This document shows, piece after piece, positions 55,940 to 64,000 of a DNA stretch of 64,000 nucleotides. The stretch spans positions 372,001-436,000 of the forward strand of contig NZ_FQUV01000001.1 in the NCBI RefSeq assembly GCF_900129235.1, in the 5' to 3' direction. Each line of letters begins with the position of its first letter. Position 1 is the first letter of the stretch. A model generated the notes under the pieces. It was not told where the DNA came from, did no database searches, and saw only the letters and a list, made by a program, of their open reading frames with translations. Both the position numbers and the translations under genes were made by a program. This DNA comes from Litoreibacter ascidiaceicola. GTDB lineage: Bacteria; Pseudomonadota; Alphaproteobacteria; Rhodobacterales; Rhodobacteraceae.

Positions 55940-57024
55940 GCTCCATCATCTCGCTTTCCGGCATTCAGAAATACTACGGGGATTACCACGCCTTGCGCGG
56001 CATCGACCTCGAGATAAAGCAGGGCGAGTTCTTCTCGCTGCTCGGCCCCTCAGGCTGCGGCAAGACCACGTTGCTGCGGGTGATTGCAGGGTTCGAGGAC
56101 GTGTCCGAGGGCGTGCTATTGCTTGATGGCGCCGATATGGCCCGCGTGCCTGCGAACAAGCGCCCGACCAATATGGTGTTCCAAAGCTATGCGATTTTCC
56201 CGCATTTGACCGTCGGTCAGAACGTGGCCTTTGGGTTGCGGAAGAAGGGGTTGTCCAAGGACGACATGGCAAAGGCGGCCGCCGAGGCGTTGGAGATGGT
56301 CGGCCTCGCGGGCTATGGCGACCGCGCGGCGCATGCTCTGTCAGGTGGCCAACGGCAACGGGTGGCCTTGGCCCGTGCACTGGTTTTGAAACCGAAGGTT
56401 TTGCTGCTGGACGAGCCGCTCTCCGCGCTCGACAAGAAAATGCGCGAGCAGATGCAGGGCGAGCTGCGCCGCTTGCAACGCCAAGTGGGCATCACCTTCA
56501 TTCTGGTCACCCATGACCAAGAAGAAGCGCTGATTATGTCGGACCGTATCGCCGTGATGTTCGAAGGCGAAATCGCGCAAATGGCCTCCCCGCAAGAGTT
56601 ATACCGCCGCCCCGCCACCCGCCGCGTGGGGGAATTTATCGGGGTGATGAACTTCCTAGAGGCCAAGCAAACCGGCACCTCCGAAAAAACCATCAATTTC
56701 GATGTCGAAGGGCTTGGTGCAGCTGAAATCGGGATCGACCAATTCCCCGAAGGCGCACGCGCCTCGGCCGATGTGGTGGGGCTGCGCCCCGAGGCATTGT
56801 CGATCCTGTTCGAGGGGCAAAAATCCACAGGCCGCGTGGCCGATGCCACCGTCCAAGACCTCGCCTACTATGGCGACATGACCTATTACGAAGTCACGCT
56901 GGAAGGCTCGTCGACGCCCGTCACCATTTCCATGAAGAACCTGATCTCCCGCCCCGTGCTGGAGCGTGGCACAAAAACACGGGTTCAGTGGGACGAGCGG
57001 TCGCTGGTGATCTTCGCCGCTTGA
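55936..57024 (+). CDS. potA: Polyamine-type ABC ATPase (PotA-like)
   Basis: 362 residues from GTG 55936, overlapping the PotC-like stop. Walker A GPSGCGKTTLLR, Q-loop VFQSYAIFPHLTV, signature LSGGQRQRVALARAL, Walker B VLLLDEPLSALDKK, H-loop THDQ, and a C-terminal TOBE region (GLRPEALSIL). It drives the potB/potC-like import system. Specificity for polyamines is family-based inference. Confidence 0.9.
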   Translation: MSSIISLSGIQKYYGDYHALRGIDLEIKQGEFFSLLGPSGCGKTTLLRVIAGFEDVSEGVLLLDGADMARVPANKRPTNMVFQSYAIFPHLTVGQNVAFGLRKKGLSKDDMAKAAAEALEMVGLAGYGDRAAHALSGGQRQRVALARALVLKPKVLLLDEPLSALDKKMREQMQGELRRLQRQVGITFILVTHDQEEALIMSDRIAVMFEGEIAQMASPQELYRRPATRRVGEFIGVMNFLEAKQTGTSEKTINFDVEGLGAAEIGIDQFPEGARASADVVGLRPEALSILFEGQKSTGRVADATVQDLAYYGDMTYYEVTLEGSSTPVTISMKNLISRPVLERGTKTRVQWDERSLVIFAA

Positions 57025-57112
57025 CCTTCGCGCTTCAGGCCGCCATTTACCCCCTACACATAACCCGCAACCGGGCGTTCCGTGGGCGCCAAACTGACGA
57101 GGAGCCTATACA

Positions 57113-59059
57113 ATGGCCTCAATCTCTCTGACATTTCCTGACGGCAATTCGCGCGACTATGACGCGGGCGTAACGCCTGCCGAAGTCGCCGCCTCCATCG
57201 CGTCGTCGCTGGCCAAGAAGGCCATTTCCGCCACTGTAAACGGCGCGCATCACGACTTGGCTTGGCCGATCGACGCTGACGCCTCCATCGCGATCAACAC
57301 GATGAAGGACGAGGCCCCTGCGCTGGAGCTGATCCGCCACGATCTGGCCCATATCATGGCCCGCGCGGTGCAAGAGCTGTGGCCTGACGTGCAGGTCACC
57401 ATCGGGCCTGTGATCAAAGACGGCTGGTACTACGATTTCGACCGCGCCGAGCCATTCGTGCCCGAAGACCTTGCCGCCATCGAGAAAAAGATGCGCGAGA
57501 TCATCAACAAGCGCGACGCCGTACGTACCGAAGTCTGGGACCGCGCCCGCGCGATCAAGCATTACGAAGACAAGGGCGAGCCCTATAAAGTCGAGTTGAT
57601 CGAAAGCATCCCCGGCGACGAGCCTTTGCGCATGTATTGGCATGGCGACTGGCAGGATCTGTGCCGTGGCCCGCACTTGCAAAACACCGGCCAAGTGCCC
57701 GGGGATGCATGGAAACTCATGTCCATCGCCGGCGCCTATTGGCGCGGTGACAGCGACCGTGCGCAGCTGCAACGCATCTATGGTGTCGCGTTCCAGAACA
57801 AGGAAAAGCTGAAAGAATACCTGCACTTCCTCGAGGAAGCCGAGAAGCGCGACCACCGCAAACTGGGCCGTGAAATGGACCTCTATCACATGCAGGAAGA
57901 GGCCCCCGGTCAGGTATTCTGGCACCCCAATGGCTGGACGATCTACACCGAGTTGCAGGACTACATGCGCCGGATGCAGCGCAAGGGTGGTTACGTCGAA
58001 GTTAACACACCACAGGTCGTCGACCGCAGGCTGTGGGAGGCGTCCGGCCACTGGGAGAAGTACCAAGAGCACATGTTTGTGGTCGAAGTGGACGAAGACC
58101 ACGCCCGCGAAAAGACGGTTAACGCGCTGAAGCCGATGAACTGCCCCTGCCACGTGCAAGTGTATAATCAGGGCCTGAAATCCTACCGCGACCTGCCCCT
58201 GCGCATGGCCGAGTTCGGCTCATGTGCGCGCTACGAGCCGTCCGGCGCGTTGCATGGCATCATGCGGGTGCGCGGCTTTACCCAAGACGATGGCCACATC
58301 TTCTGCCGCGAGGACCAGATCGAGGACGAAACTGCGATCTTCATCGAATTTTTGTCAAATGTTTACAAAGACCTCGGGTTCGAGAAGTTCAGCGTTAAGT
58401 TTTCCGACCGCCCCGACACCCGCGCGGGCAGCGACGAGGTCTGGGACAAGGCAGAAGCCGCGTTGCTGTCGGCCACCCGTGCCGCGGGGATCGAGCCGGA
58501 GTTGAACCCTGGTGAGGGTGCTTTCTACGGGCCAAAGCTTGAGTTTGTGTTAACCGACGCCATCGGGCGGGACTGGCAGTGTGGGACGCATCAGGTGGAC
58601 TTCGTGCTGCCTGAGCGGCTTGATGCGAACTATATCGGCGAGGACGGCAACAAGCACCGTCCGGTGATGTTGCACCGCGCGACGCTTGGCTCGTTCGAGC
58701 GGTTCATCGGCATTTTGATCGAGGAGCACGCGGGCAAGCTGCCGTTCTGGCTGGCCCCGCGTCAGGTGGTTGTGGCCTCCATCGTGTCGGATGCGGACGC
58801 CTATGTGCTTGAAACGGTTGAGAAACTGAAAGCTGCTGGCATCCGTGCCGAGGCGGATATTCGGAACGAGAAGATCAACTACAAGGTGCGCGAGCACTCG
58901 GTCGGCAAGGTTCCGGTGATCCTTGCGGTCGGCAAGAAAGAGGTCGAGGACGGCACGGTCACGCTGCGCCGTCTGGGGGAAAAGCAAACTTCCGTCGTGG
59001 CGACGGATGGGCTGATTGCGGACCTCAAGGCCGAGGCCTGCCCGCCTGATCTTACGTAA
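57113..59059 (+). CDS. thrS: Threonyl-tRNA synthetase
   Basis: 648 residues, usual size. N-terminal TGS domain ([16 protein letters not shown]), editing domain ([27 protein letters not shown]), catalytic core with zinc Cys in [10 protein letters not shown] and motif-2 text [15 protein letters not shown] then [10 protein letters not shown], and anticodon-binding domain at the end. GAGGAG lies just before the ATG. Its end overlaps the convergent ArsC-like gene by 8 nt. Confidence 0.97.
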
Positions 59060-59360
59060 GAGTTTCCTCTAAGTCCTTGTTCCAGCCTAAATAAAGCGTC
59101 CCGTTATCAATGACGGGGCGCTTCATCAATGTGGGGTGCGCGATGAGTTGGTCCAGCGGGTCGGCGGCGCGCTCTGCCTCGGACATGCCGCGCCATGTGG
59201 TGGAGCGGGTGTTGACCAGATCGGACCCGAAGGCGTCCAGAAACCGCTGCAATTCGGCGCGGTCCAGAGGCGTTGCGCGGACGTCGATGAACTGCGCATC
59301 CGGCAGGGCTTTGAGCGCCTTGCGGCAGGTGTCGCAGGTCTTGATGCCATAGAGTTTCAT
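59052..59360 (-). CDS. ArsC/Spx-family thioredoxin-fold protein
   Basis: 102 residues. [15 protein letters not shown] carries a CxxC at residues 9-12, followed by [20 protein letters not shown] and [14 protein letters not shown], the ArsC-like pattern (YffB group). The catalytic Arg-rich loop of true arsenate reductases is not obvious, so arsenate reduction is unlikely to be assured; a glutathione-dependent thiol reductase is possible. Divergent from cspA. Confidence 0.85.
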
Positions 59361-59646
59361 GCGGTTTCCCCCTCTGATTCCTTTAGTTTTATGGGGTTTG
59401 TCACAAAAATTGTCCAGAATTCGCCCACGCGAAATGCTTGAGGATCAAAGACTTACCTAACGTAACTCCGCCGAAAATCGGGCGTCTGATTTCTGTTATT
59501 GAAGTTTCAAAAAGCATGCCTAATCTATTGATTGTGAGACAGACTTTACGTTTCGGCCTACTTCTACGGATGCACGCGCCCAACTTGAAGACACTGCTGC
59601 ACCACCCCGCCGCATACCGCGGGCGGAGACTAGAAGGAGACACGGA
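59361..59646 (+). promoter_or_regulatory. Intergenic region holding the cspA leader
   Basis: 286 nt between the divergent ArsC-like gene and cspA. Less GC-rich than its surroundings. A long untranslated cold-shock leader is likely here, but no cold-box or promoter could be placed reliably. AGAAGGAGA just before the ATG is a strong ribosome site. Confidence 0.4.
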
Positions 59647-59856
59647 ATGGCCACTGGCACCGTAAAATGGTTCAACACAACCAAAGGCTTCGGCTTTATT
59701 GCACCTGACGATGGCGGCAAGGACGTCTTCGTCCATATTTCCGCGGTCGAGCGCGCTGGTCTGACCGGCCTGCGTGACGACCAGAAGATCCAGTACGAGA
59801 TGATCGAAGGCCGCGATGGCCGCGCATCGGCTGGTGATCTGGTAGCACTTGATTAA
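59647..59856 (+). CDS. cspA: CspA-type cold-shock protein
   Basis: 69 residues. The single cold-shock domain has RNA-binding motifs KGFGFIAP and DVFVHISAVE. It binds single-stranded RNA or DNA as a chaperone. Preceded by AGAAGGAGA at the ribosome site and followed by a terminator at 59881-59908. Confidence 0.95.
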   Translation: MATGTVKWFNTTKGFGFIAPDDGGKDVFVHISAVERAGLTGLRDDQKIQYEMIEGRDGRASAGDLVALD

Positions 59857-59880
59857 CCTCCAGACCGTTAAGAAGTGATG

Positions 59881-59908
59881 AAAGCCCGCCCCACCGGCGG
59901 GCTTTTTG
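59881..59908 (+). terminator. Rho-independent terminator of cspA
   Basis: 8-bp stem AGCCCGCC/GGCGGGCT with CCACC loop and then TTTTT, 27 nt after the stop. Confidence 0.88.
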
Positions 59909-60011
59909 CTTTGTGGCGTTAAGATTTGGGGGCTGTCTGCCAAGCGTCGGCAAAGTGTCGGCTTTTTGTCGGGCATCGTGTAGGTAGTGCTTCATTCACC
60001 GGAAGCGCTGC

Positions 60012-60103
60012 GCCACGCCCGAACCGAGGGGTGGGAGCGGAACGCGCCCGCCCCGTGGGGACGGTTCGGGCGCGGCACGATCTTTGATCGTGCATTGCGC
60101 AAT
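60012..60103. repeat. Stacked inverted repeats at the border of the AT-rich islet
   Basis: Three palindromes in a row: GCC-x-CGCCCGAACCG (60012-60026) pairing with CGGTTCGGGCG-x-GGC (60062-60076), 14 of 15 bp, loop 35 nt; GCACGATC-TTT-GATCGTGC (60075-60093); and ATTGCGCAAT (60094-60103). The first two overlap slightly. No ORF or tRNA cloverleaf fits. Could be a non-coding RNA, terminator, or remnant mobile-element end. Confidence 0.5.
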
Positions 60104-60194
60104 ACATTCCAGAAACCTAGCCATTACATCTATTGAAAAAATAGCTCCAGATCACCAAGTCAGATTTATACAGAATTTATTGATAGGCTAAAAC

Positions 60195-60359
60195 ATGACT
60201 ATTTTAGCACAATTGCAATGCCTCAATTGCGGGGAGCGGTTCGAAAGGGAAATATTGGAGCGGTCAGAAAAGCAAGAATACGAAAAACAGAACCGCCCGA
60301 CGTCTCCAATTCAATGTCCCAAGTGCAACCGCACTGATATCAGAACGGGCTGGAGCTAA
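60195..60359 (+). CDS. 54-residue zinc-ribbon-like microprotein
   Basis: ATG at 60195, 54 codons, TAA at 60357. Two CxxC knuckles, CLNC (residues 9-12) and CPKC (near 42-45), flank a basic/acidic helix rich in Glu, Arg and Lys, as in small zinc ribbons. Lower GC than flanking DNA. It is convergent with the TIR-like gene, with the two stops overlapping by 4 nt. Function unknown; nucleic-acid or protein binding is a generic guess. Confidence 0.65.
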   Translation: MTILAQLQCLNCGERFEREILERSEKQEYEKQNRPTSPIQCPKCNRTDIRTGWS

Positions 60360-61195
60360 ATTAGCCTGTTCAAGTCGATTTCGTAACCTGCATGTAAAAG
60401 CTCTTGAGCAAGCGACATCCGCCACGCCTCAGCGCCATCAATTTCTGTGTAAACAACACCCATAATATCTGAGGGTGCCTCAACCCCCTTAGATTTGAGA
60501 ACACATATCTTAGATCGGCCTAGCTTGGAGGCGAAAAACCCTAATTCCATTACGACGTTTTGGCGCGCCCTTGGAGAGGCTTTGTCTCGCTCCACCTCAG
60601 CGAGAGCCCCGCCCATGTCATCTGCAGTCATCAAGATTACAGCAAATCCCACATCTGAGTACTCTTCAAATTTTTCAATAACTGTTTTACCGCCGTTAGG
60701 TTGCTCCCGCAAAACCACAGGCCGCAATCCAAGCGACCCCAAAGTCTCCTTAACGCGAAACAGCACTGCATTGTCATGCCCGTGCACCACAAAAACCTTC
60801 GTTTTTACTACCACAGAATCAGGGGGTACAGATGACCCAGCACTCGCCTTCGTTGCAATTTCATTTTGTTCAACGCCCTCCCTAGAAAGAAAATCACTTC
60901 CGAAGGTCTCAAGAACTCGGATTACTCTCAATGTTCGAGCCCGAATTTCAGTGATCTTACTATTCCGATTGTACCCGTATGTTTCCTCCACCTTTTGAAG
61001 GCTGCTCAACTTCGTGGTCAGTGCGCCATTCCCATTACTTCTTGAATAATCTGTCAAATCTTCCAACAGCTCATCCAAATGATTTTCATCAAATTCTCGA
61101 GAACCATAGCTGTGAGGATCGTTCGCTTCAGCCTGAAGCAGATTCAATTCTGCTTCGATTTCTTTCAAGTCATTCAAGAAGCGGTCAAAGCTCAT
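60356..61195 (-). CDS. TIR-like predicted nucleotide-binding protein (CAP12/PCTIR type)
   Basis: 279 residues. Residues 1-120 are helical with no recognised domain. A TIR-like domain (about 132-279) starts VFVVHGHDNAVLFRVKETL (134-152), continues with FAVILMTADDMGG and ARQNVVMELGFF with the presumed catalytic Glu217, then ICVLKSKGVEAPSDIMGVVY. This resembles the predicted nucleotide-binding TIR-like family (PF10137), whose CBASS relative is an NAD-degrading effector. No nucleotide cyclase gene is adjacent. Markedly AT-richer than the surroundings, suggesting acquisition. It lies 90 nt downstream of thyX on the same strand. Confidence 0.85.
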   Translation of the reverse strand: MSFDRFLNDLKEIEAELNLLQAEANDPHSYGSREFDENHLDELLEDLTDYSRSNGNGALTTKLSSLQKVEETYGYNRNSKITEIRARTLRVIRVLETFGSDFLSREGVEQNEIATKASAGSSVPPDSVVVKTKVFVVHGHDNAVLFRVKETLGSLGLRPVVLREQPNGGKTVIEKFEEYSDVGFAVILMTADDMGGALAEVERDKASPRARQNVVMELGFFASKLGRSKICVLKSKGVEAPSDIMGVVYTEIDGAEAWRMSLAQELLHAGYEIDLNRLI

Positions 61196-61284
61196 AGAGT
61201 GTTCTCACAGTCATATTAATAAAGATTCAGTTCGAAAAAAATGGTTCAGGGCCAACCGCAAAATACCAAAATTTCGCCCCCTTA

Positions 61285-62190
61285 TCACCCAATAACCCCC
61301 ATAAACTCCCGCCACTCCCCCTTGCTCATGCCGGAGGTTTCCTGTGTGACCTCCTCGCCTTTGAGCATCCGGCGGACGCAGTCGACGGCTTTGCCGCTGA
61401 GTTGCGCGCCGCCCAGACGGTAGTCCTCGAAGGCGGAGTATGCGGCGGGGACCCAGTCGGCGACGACCTTACAAATCGCGTCGGCGTAAACCCTTATTTC
61501 ATACTGTGCATGGCTATCTGCACGCAGGCGCAAGAAGTGAAACAGATTGTGGAGGTCCACCTTCCAGTACCATTGAGTGTAAATGTTGGCAGGCAGGTTC
61601 ATGCGGGCCAGCTCGCGGGCGAGGCCGTCTTGGCCATCGTCGGAGATCATCGCCTCGTAGTTGTCATAGGCGCGGGTGCTGTCGGCCTTGAGGATTTCGA
61701 GGACGCGGGCGGCCTCCTCCCCTTCGAGGATTTTGCCGCGGCCCTGGTTGTTCACCACGGACTGCGCGTTGATATGCTCGGGCGCGGGGATGTAGAACTC
61801 GCGGTCGAGGATTGAATAGCGGGCGGAGTATTCGTTGACGTTGGCGGTCCGGTGGCGGATCCACTGGCGGGCAACGAAGACGGGCAGTTTGACGTGCAGC
61901 TTGATCTCGCACATCTCGAAGGGCGTGGAGTGCCAGTGGCGCATCAGGTAGCGGATCAGGCCCTCGTCGTTTTGCACCGACTTGGTGCCCTTGCCGTAAG
62001 AGACGCGGGCGGCTTGGCAGATGGCTGAATCGTCGCCCATGTAGTCGATGACGCGGATGAAGCCATGGTCGAGCACCTCGTGGGCGGTATAGAGATGCGC
62101 CTCCATCCCCGGCACGGTGGCGCGCATGGTGGTGTTTTGCTGGGACCGCGCGTCGGCGATTTCCTGAGCTTGATCTGGGGAAATGGGCAT
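61285..62190 (-). CDS. thyX: Flavin-dependent thymidylate synthase
   Basis: 301 residues. The ThyX motif reads [15 protein letters not shown] (RHR-x7-S type), with [20 protein letters not shown] before it and [20 protein letters not shown] after. It makes dTMP from dUMP with methylenetetrahydrofolate and FAD. No thyA is in the window. Longer N-terminus (about 25 residues) than minimal ThyX. The AT-rich islet lies just downstream. Confidence 0.95.
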
Positions 62191-62441
62191 GGGCGGTCTC
62201 CGGCGTAAGGGGATTCGTGGGTTGAGACCATATATTGCGTCAAAGGTGGCGTATGCATCAAGATGATGTTGGGGTTATCCACAGGGTAATCCCAATTCGC
62301 CGCACCTTCGGGCGATTGTTTAGCAACACTCCACAAATTCGCCCCCAAATGCTGCCGCTGGGTCGTTGACTTTTGACCGTCATCAACGGACTTTCCTACA
62401 AAACGCGCCGTGAGCGCATATTCGGGCAGTGAGATATAGCT

Positions 62442-63395
62442 ATGATCCTTAATTCCGCCGTGAAGGCCTTTGGTATTCTTTCCGTTTCCGCGCTGATCGC
62501 GTGTGGCGGCTCCGGCGACAATCCGGTGACGGGCGGCACGGTTGATACCGACGTCGATCCGACGGACCCGAATGTCGTCACCGGCCAGAAGTTTGCCTTC
62601 GACAGAACGGTCGGACTGGTGGCGAACAGCATCGAGTTTCGCGAAAATGTTGCCGGTGACCCTTCGGATGACCAGTTGGTGATCAACAATATCCCGTTTG
62701 ACACGACGACCGGCGAATATGACCGCACGGGCACCCTACCCAATGGTTGGGGTCTCTATCAAAACACCGAGCGTAATCTTGAGGGCCGCCTTCAGTATTT
62801 TGCGGTCTTCAACCAATCCGCAACGGCCGACGTTGAAGGTGGCGTCGCGGCGTCCCCGCAATATCGCGGATCTATCGGGAACGCCGGTGCCGTAATCCGA
62901 AGATCCAGCACGCCAGTTTCATTACCTGTAGCTGGCATTTTCAACTATAACGGTTCCTATTCGGGTATTCGCGAGATCGACAATGATCTGGACACCACGG
63001 GCACGGTTCCGGGTATCACTTTGGTTACCGGAGACGCACTTGTGCGCGTTGACTATGGTGACTTCGACGTAACTGGTGACATCGTCGGCTCCATTTCCAA
63101 TCGCAACGTCTACGACGTGAACGGGACCTTCTTGGGAAGCCTGTCCAATGTCAGCCTTGCAGAGGCGCTTATTGACCGCCCGACGCAAACCATCAACGAA
63201 AGCGGTGCAAGCTCGCAAGACGGCCTGCTTAGCGGCACATGGGAGGGCGTGTTCGGCGGGCCAACCGGGAATGAAATCGCTGCCTATGTGATTCTCAACG
63301 GCACCACCCCCTCCACCCCCGGCGCAACGCCCACCGACCCGGTTATCCCGGGTGTGGATGTGCGCGAGCTGGGTATTTTGTTGGTTGCCCAATAA
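62442..63395 (+). CDS. Predicted lipoprotein, transferrin-binding-protein-like barrel; probable Slam substrate
   Basis: 317 residues. The signal ends in a lipobox ALIAC with Cys21 followed by Gly-Gly-Ser-Gly. The mature part is Gly/Thr/Asp-rich with many short beta-strand-like segments (YRGSIGNAGAVIR, GIFNYNGSYSGIREI, VRVDYGDFDVTGDI), fitting TbpB-like barrel lipoproteins. It is followed after 25 nt by a Slam-type gene, the usual order of lipoprotein and its translocator. Surface exposure and a ligand (metal, haem) are inference. Confidence 0.78.
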   Translation: MILNSAVKAFGILSVSALIACGGSGDNPVTGGTVDTDVDPTDPNVVTGQKFAFDRTVGLVANSIEFRENVAGDPSDDQLVINNIPFDTTTGEYDRTGTLPNGWGLYQNTERNLEGRLQYFAVFNQSATADVEGGVAASPQYRGSIGNAGAVIRRSSTPVSLPVAGIFNYNGSYSGIREIDNDLDTTGTVPGITLVTGDALVRVDYGDFDVTGDIVGSISNRNVYDVNGTFLGSLSNVSLAEALIDRPTQTINESGASSQDGLLSGTWEGVFGGPTGNEIAAYVILNGTTPSTPGATPTDPVIPGVDVRELGILLVAQ

Positions 63396-63420
63396 AATCA
63401 GGCAGTGCCTCGCTCGGGGG

Positions 63421-64000
63421 ATGCGAGCACTGCTGGTTTCACATGTACTTGTTTTGGCTGGAACCGCGGGCCAGACCGCGCCCACGGTAATTTCCATTGC
63501 CGAAAGCCGTGACCTCGGTTTTCGGCTTCTGCTGCAAAAACAACCGCTGGCCGCCAAAGAAATTGCCCTAGCCTTGCTTCAACGTGATGTCGAGGACGTG
63601 AAAGCCTTGCTCATCTTATCCCGCGCAGAACGGCTTCTGGACAATAGCCAGCAAGCCAAAATCGCAGGAAAGCGCGCGTGGAAAGCGGCAACGACCTCCG
63701 AAGACCGCTTCACAGCAGCGATGCTTACCGCGCAGGCGATTTCCTCCTCCGGCAACAAGATCGGGGCCCAGTTGTGGCTGCGACGCGCGGCCGAGGTCGC
63801 ACCGAACGACAAGTTGAAATCCACCGCTGTGCGAGATTTGCGCCATGTACGCGGAACCAGCCCTCTTGCCCTGTCCCTCGATGTGTCAGTTGCACCATCA
63901 TCCAACATCAACAACGGCTCCAAATCGGACTCGATAGAAATTTTCGGCCTGCCATTTACGCTAAGTGGCGACGCGCAAGCCTTGTCGGGCGTAGAATACT
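63421..64000 (+). CDS. Slam-type surface lipoprotein assembly modulator, N-terminal part
   Basis: 193 codons from ATG 63421, running off the window. A signal-like start (MRALLVSHVLVLAGTAG) is followed by helical TPR-like text (AKEIALALLQRDVEDVKALL, KIGAQLWLRRAAEVAPND). Then the beginning of the barrel domain: SLDVSVAPSSNINNGSKSDS, IEIFGLPFTLSGDAQALSG, which I recognise as the start of the Slam (DUF560/SlipAM) domain. Slam proteins move lipoproteins to the outer surface. The pairing with the lipoprotein gene upstream supports this. The rest lies outside the window. Confidence 0.83.
   Translation, partial: MRALLVSHVLVLAGTAGQTAPTVISIAESRDLGFRLLLQKQPLAAKEIALALLQRDVEDVKALLILSRAERLLDNSQQAKIAGKRAWKAATTSEDRFTAAMLTAQAISSSGNKIGAQLWLRRAAEVAPNDKLKSTAVRDLRHVRGTSPLALSLDVSVAPSSNINNGSKSDSIEIFGLPFTLSGDAQALSGVEY

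Follow-up and report, generated by a model that had tools for sequence, protein, structure and literature searches.

Between cspA and thyX of Litoreibacter ascidiaceicola, a very small zinc-ribbon protein is encoded tail-to-tail with a protein carrying a TIR domain. The locus raises the question of whether the two proteins belong together and, if they do, what the small one does to the large one. TIR enzymes play a central part in the immunity of bacteria, plants and animals, and, to our knowledge, how a standalone bacterial TIR NADase is kept silent is not well understood. We propose, with a probability of about one half and on the strength of sequence comparisons, that the two genes may form an anti-phage module of the abortive-infection type, consisting of a TIR enzyme and a zinc ribbon that restrains it. 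Below, "the window" is the whole stretch of 64,000 nucleotides that was analysed, and the designations G, L and C denote genomes, loci and contigs, respectively (G000 is the genome of the window).

Results

A low-GC islet with two convergent genes

The features of the locus are as follows (positions in the window).

59647..59856, + strand: cspA, the left edge of the variable site
60010..60093, + strand: conserved non-coding element of 84 bp that borders the islet on the cspA side; its inverted repeat has arms of 15 nt
60195..60359, + strand: zinc-ribbon microprotein of 54 aa, with C9, C12, C41 and C44 and the C-terminal sequence RTDIRTGW (from the open reading frame, alignment and selection)
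60356..61195, - strand: TIR-domain protein of 279 aa, putative NAD-cleaving effector (from PF10137 and PDC-S35)
60437..60799, - strand: TIR domain, residues 133-253, with HGHD at residues 138-141 (from the Pfam range and alignment)
60545..60547, - strand: codon of Glu217, presumed catalytic (from alignment)
60800..61195, - strand: N-terminal region, residues 1-132 (no Pfam family at threshold)
61285..62190, - strand: thyX, the right edge of the variable site

Positions 60195-61194 have a GC content of 0.467; the 252 sliding 1-kb segments average 0.603 (sd 0.032), and the only three of them that fall below 0.50 all lie inside the islet. A reading made earlier from the sequence alone (the sequence-only reading) had described an AT-richer segment of 1 kb between cspA and thyX; its composition and place are borne out, whereas its true extent is slightly longer, about 1.2 kb (about 60094-61284). 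The DNA of the islet is foreign. The sole match in an Rfam scan was a cspA thermoregulator below threshold (43.1 bits against a gathering score of 78), and a promoter scan found none, with 1.3 expected by chance. The 84-bp element occurs once in the genome of the window. G1034 (99%), G1035 (88%) and G093 (87%) carry it at the equivalent position, the latter two having one further match each elsewhere in the genome, and it has no match in G1023 and G1024. Possibly, the element marks a boundary or is related to integration.

The assignment of the 279-residue protein to the TIR domain, already suggested by the sequence-only reading, is firm as judged from profile comparison: PF10137 matches residues 133-253 with an E value of 1.1e-33 (116.2 bits against a gathering score of 24.7), the PADLOC model PDC-S35 matches residues 32-278 with 3.8e-68 (profile positions 21-262 of 264), and phrog_16442 matches residues 114-273 with 5.2e-51. 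Glu217, on whose presence in an alignment the earlier reading had staked its idea, is invariant in all seven aligned rows, including that of the window, and the glutamate of the FEFG motif in the solved Cap12 structure 9lmq, which we take to be the catalytic residue of that protein, aligns with it; catalysis by Glu217 is thus presumed. In the N-terminal domain, which the earlier reading had left unassigned, no Pfam family reaches its threshold, and PDC-S35 extends into it from residue 32. Among six related loci, the N-terminal part is matched at full length in one, that of Pseudaestuariivita atlantica (57% identity). Matches of the PF10137 domain to the TIR protein of the window were found in 1120 of 72,556 plasmid records, mostly of Klebsiella and Escherichia, and none of them covers 80% of the query.

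The sequence-only reading had indicated overlapping stop codons for the 54-residue protein with two CxxC motifs and the TIR gene; the overlap is four bases. In an alignment of 13 microproteins, residues C9, N11, C12, F16, L21, E25, C41, P42, C44, R46, T47, D48, R50, G52 and W53 are invariant and the spacing is fixed. Outside this alignment, both copies in G999 have A in place of D48, and the microproteins of G1145, G1147 and G1055 are more distant, with a tail that differs more. Three of the six pairs tested gave a dN/dS of 0.03-0.14, and the other three gave no dS; by the NG86 method, dN and dS were 0.15 and 1.03 for G044-G171, 0.07 and 2.57 for G044-G258, and 0.23 and 2.99 for G000-G072, the dS values of 2.6 and 3.0 being saturated. 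In all eight pairs compared, third codon positions hold more differences than either of the other two. Conservation, selection and recurrence in other genomes rule out a chance or mis-called reading frame, and by these sequence criteria the microproteins form a genuine family that is under selection.

With the microprotein of the window, no Pfam or NCBIfam model among those shown reaches its cut-off, and a profile search of the PDB returned scattered zinc-binding look-alikes only (best E value 0.0075). The nearest neighbours of the family are the FmdB-type zinc ribbons (PF09723 and TIGR02605). PF09723 matches all 13 microproteins weakly (best 6.9e-7) and TIGR02605 matches 10 of the 13 (best 2.7e-6); however, the microprotein of the window misses the cut-off of PF09723 (16.9 bits against 34.4), and, unlike FmdB, the family has its knuckles farther apart and ends in a characteristic RTDxRxGW tail.

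Occurrence of the microprotein beside TIR genes

All 25 strong copies of the microprotein, 16 in genomes and nine on plasmids, adjoin a TIR gene or a remnant of one; the 25 are not all independent, since several of the Rhodobacterales plasmids closely duplicate one another, and a plasmid and a sampled genome may come from one species. The microprotein was found in 10 of 295 genomes of the family. The TIR gene is directly adjacent in eight of these, and the other two are broken by insertions: in G239, a C-terminally truncated TIR gene was split off by an insertion that is presumably IS66-like, and in G184 an IS-broken C-terminal fragment of the TIR gene lies by the microprotein gene. Farther away, the microprotein was found, each time beside TIR genes, in G368 among 385 genomes of the class, at two loci of G999 among 398 genomes of the phylum, and in G1145, G1147 and G1055 among 130 genomes of the order of G999; 28 genomes of the order of G368 gave no copy outside G368 itself. 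Together, the 16 strong loci lie in 15 genomes, 14 of them with an adjacent TIR open reading frame and two with a TIR fragment beyond insertion sequences. Two weak matches were dropped before these counts, one in G639 (E value 6.8e-4, residues 1-37, no TIR seen) and one in G679 (8.1e-4, inside a frame of 2155 aa); with both included, the genome tally is 16 of 18.

Four microprotein queries, one at E<=0.01 and three at E<=1, returned the same nine of 72,556 plasmid records. Seven of these carry the TIR gene first, one carries the microprotein gene first (Methylorubrum CM4), and one, in NGR234, has a C-terminal TIR remnant (ThsB model, E value 6.4e-5). The flanks were read for six of the nine (H1, H3, H5, H6, H8 and H9), and the TIR genes of the other three were taken from annotation and the positions of TIR matches. 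In the PLSDB gene table, which is incomplete, the TIR gene is the only gene listed under the microprotein match in seven of the nine copies, showing how easily such small partners are missed. No match was found in 50,697 phage records. Two ribbons from viral contigs (L046 and L047) were left out, having 40% identity over residues 7-51, and the part of L046 that was read has no TIR. The setting can also be more complex, as in a 2.5-kb cluster of G999 (L102:2388-4851) with a ThsB-like TIR gene, a gene of 161 aa, the microprotein gene and a second, shorter TIR gene whose product has a basic C-terminal tail.

The sequence-only reading had held that its idea would fail if homologues of the TIR gene never carried the microprotein nearby. 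The closest TIR homologue, that of P. atlantica, does carry it, and the suggestion that the zinc ribbon is a partner or an antidote gains support from the 25 copies. From this co-occurrence, it is very probable that the zinc ribbon serves the TIR protein as a dedicated partner.

Gene order and exchange of the TIR gene at the thyX site

Twenty-two pairs could be placed, of which 15 have the TIR gene first, four are convergent, two are divergent and one has the microprotein gene first. Among the TIR-first pairs, 13, including the NGR234 remnant, overlap by exactly 8 bp, a value that depends on the start codons chosen, and the other two are split by insertions. The convergent pairs have gaps of -4, -4, 0 and +2, the CM4 pair has a gap of 2 bp, and the divergent pairs of G1147 and G1055 have about 65-97 bp between start codons, according to the start chosen. 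In a tree of 31 ThsB-like TIR proteins, from which the PF10137 lineage and the TIR proteins of G1145, G1147 and G1055 were left out, accounting for the presence of the microprotein takes four changes; well-supported branches force at least three, and the changes may be gains or losses. With four gene orders and several TIR groups, the pairing must have been kept or re-made repeatedly.

The constant overlap suggests translational coupling and matched amounts of the two proteins, and thus favours the view that the microprotein is a structural or targeting cofactor, serving the folding, oligomerisation or localisation of the TIR protein without acting as a switch. However, order and strand vary, so coupled translation cannot be required, and TIR proteins of sister lineages are intact without the microprotein; we consider a role of this kind unlikely.

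In G000, G072 (P. atlantica) and G093, the microprotein and TIR genes both lie 3' of thyX. The microproteins of G072 and G093 are 72-76% identical to that of the window (76% in G093). The TIR protein belongs to PF10137 in G000 and G072; that of G093 belongs to PF13676 (TIR_2) and matches the ThsB model of PADLOC. In G072 and G093, the TIR frame can start at a GTG that overlaps the stop codon of thyX. The earlier suggestion that the pair of the window may be a decaying remnant is rejected: neither of its reading frames is damaged, and the pairing is conserved in P. atlantica.

These observations bear on the simplest alternative, in which both genes merely travel on small defence islets and do not act jointly. 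Both are indeed low-GC cargo, and defence genes cluster. Against this stand the presence of a TIR gene or remnant at every strong copy, the 8-bp overlap in 13 pairs, the four gene orders, and the site at thyX, where the TIR differs and the microprotein subgroup stays. Such hitchhiking is strongly disfavoured and, in our judgement, very improbable.

The cspA-thyX gap in related genomes

A thyX gene was found in 22 of the 26 genomes searched, the window's own included; six of the same-genus thyX genes are 96-99% identical to that of the window, and the other full-length matches are 84-92% identical. In nine genomes of the genus, both cspA and thyX were found within the stretch retrieved, and in all nine the content of the gap differs from the pair of the window, and the GC content of these gaps (L129-L136 and L139) is 0.44-0.55. 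L129 and L131 share a gap gene. The main open reading frame was scanned in eight of the nine gaps (two frames in G1024; L131 was left out). The gap of G1035 holds a reverse transcriptase (RT_UG13b, E value 1.8e-128), and that of G1024 holds a ThsB frame (PF08937, 3.6e-13) beside an 8xMP-domain protein (9.9e-33) with a TIR match below threshold. The gap gene of G1034 has a weak PADLOC match to SIR2 (2.8e-6 over 35 residues) and no Pfam match, and PADLOC gave no match in five of the eight scanned gaps. The gap genes of the other members encode 236-377 aa and are candidate defence genes.

Within the genus of the window, the cspA-thyX gap is a site of changing cargo, and other defence-like genes are found there too. 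This setting supports, by context, a defence role of the pair, and an anti-phage role is probable.

TIR genes without the microprotein

The pairing is not reciprocal. Of the 10 family genomes in which the TIR protein of the window has a match, in some cases a partial one, eight have no microprotein. Furthermore, intact-looking ThsB-like TIR genes without it occur in sister lineages, including Methylocella, M. extorquens AM1, M. oryzae, Microvirga, Caballeronia, Comamonas and others. Thus, the PF10137 and ThsB-like folds do not all need the microprotein. The sequence-only reading had also considered a standalone system; given the eight genomes with no microprotein, this is possible for PF10137 TIR proteins in general.

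In three cases (G239, G184 and NGR234), the microprotein is intact beside a truncated or broken TIR gene, and in two (G004 and G075), a TIR gene of the main-clade type without the microprotein is truncated or a pseudogene. This asymmetry of decay, at three against two cases, points to an antidote-like pattern. A search of the genus of G258 (one genome) and that of the window (21 genomes) added no further intact main-clade TIR gene without the microprotein; in the 21 genomes, a TIR gene was found in G171 only, plus two distant ones in G000.

Some TIR genes have other neighbours. A ThsB-like TIR gene lies directly 3' of a reverse transcriptase gene at L079, L080, L081 and L092, of which L080 (contig C10) and L081 (contig C14) are copies in the window's own genome (Pfam RVT_1 was confirmed by scan for L080). 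At L083 and L084, a ThsB-like TIR gene adjoins a methylase gene of a type I restriction-modification system (hsdM; the Pfam scan covers L083).

Discussion

A possible mechanism

The explanation that we favour for these patterns is that the microprotein binds the TIR protein and holds it inactive until infection. The TIR enzyme would cleave NAD or make an ADP-ribose signal. A phage would then cause the loss of restraint, or a phage structure would capture the TIR protein, and the freed TIR domains would assemble and deplete NAD. Restraint, rather than activation, is the role that we assign to the microprotein at roughly even odds. It is favoured because the microprotein outlives broken TIR genes and because the two main-clade TIR genes without it are broken. 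In addition, the core of the microprotein stays nearly constant while the TIR protein changes, which suits a protein that regulates the TIR fold better than one that senses phages. On the other hand, the microprotein encoded on pP24_b of P. inhibens (L049:4001-4165) has Tyr in place of Cys9 and its TIR gene looks intact, and the intact-looking TIR genes of the sister lineages likewise argue against a need for restraint.

The main rival is activation or sensing, in which the microprotein would act as an adaptor that recognises a cue of infection, a phage protein or a nucleic acid, and seeds the assembly of TIR domains. Nucleic acids are frequent ligands of zinc ribbons, which suits such a role. 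The reverse transcriptase and methylase genes beside ThsB-like TIR genes are other possible sensor modules, and with such neighbours the TIR may be an exchangeable effector that relies on its partner for recognition. However, the microprotein is short and nearly fixed in length, and its C-terminus is largely constant across distant hosts, leaving little room for a sensor in an arms race. Intact TIR proteins also exist without it. Furthermore, known TIR defenders bind phage proteins themselves: ThsB1/B2 bind the phage major capsid protein (PMC11312562), and SpbK is activated by the phage portal protein (PMC12847820). An activating or sensing microprotein seems to us rather unlikely.

If restraint is the role, it could be general. 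In this extension, which we put forward tentatively, a 54-residue ribbon would restrain both PF10137 and ThsB-like TIR proteins, so that effectors are swapped while the antidote stays. Within the searches made, this would be the first dedicated family of protein inhibitors that pairs with TIR NADases across subfamilies. A microprotein that stays with TIR proteins while the enzyme, the gene order and the host change also offers a cheap two-gene handle on how TIR enzymes are silenced.

Comparison with known systems

Names of the PDC-S type denote single-gene candidates. Taken by itself, the TIR gene belongs to such a known candidate family, PDC-S35; this model covers residues 32-278 of the TIR protein, whereas the zinc ribbon has no PADLOC match at E<=1. 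The islet had been put forward as a candidate for an undescribed system. This has to be narrowed, since the TIR gene alone is already PDC-S35; it is the zinc-ribbon partner that appears to be undescribed.

The intact PF13676 partners of the microprotein that were scanned match ThsB of Thoeris (PDLC00420) with E values from 5.7e-30 to 2.2e-85, the two weakest in the TIR half only. In contrast, the TIR protein of the window belongs to PF10137 and has no PDLC00420/ThsB match among its nine matches at E<=1. Inspection by eye of the genes listed around the microprotein loci revealed no ThsA, and the zinc ribbon is present there instead.

With Cap12 of CBASS and PycTIR of Pycsar, the TIR protein of the window has the TIR domain family and the conserved glutamate in common. 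The likeness to CBASS effectors drawn by the sequence-only reading thus holds for the domain but goes no further: the NCBIfam equivalog for Cap12 scores 36.2 bits against a cut-off of 450, and no CD-NTase or cyclase was recognised by eye among the open reading frames of 57000-64000; a CBASS operon was set aside on this inspection. SpbK is a single-TIR NADase defence protein, and the abstract describing it (PMC12847820) does not mention a zinc-ribbon partner.

The phrog_16442 family, matched by the TIR protein of the window, is a phage protein family with no assigned function, and the match shows that the TIR domain occurs in phages. A search of the 50,697 phage records with the TIR protein of G074 gave nothing at E<=1e-10, and no relative of the TIR protein of the window turned up when viral contigs were scanned by pattern. 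A phage route for the TIR gene is possible.

As in type II toxin-antitoxin systems, a small, conserved partner gene is adjacent, here at all 25 strong copies; however, toxin-antitoxin genes are seldom arranged in convergent or divergent order, which argues against restraint.

The pairing of a TIR protein with a zinc ribbon was not found described in the openly accessible literature searched, including passages of PMC7159879, PMC11312562, PMC7824862 and PMC9503650. TIR effectors, PF10137 and PDC-S35 are known; the association of a TIR enzyme with this zinc ribbon appears to be new within the libraries and literature searched.
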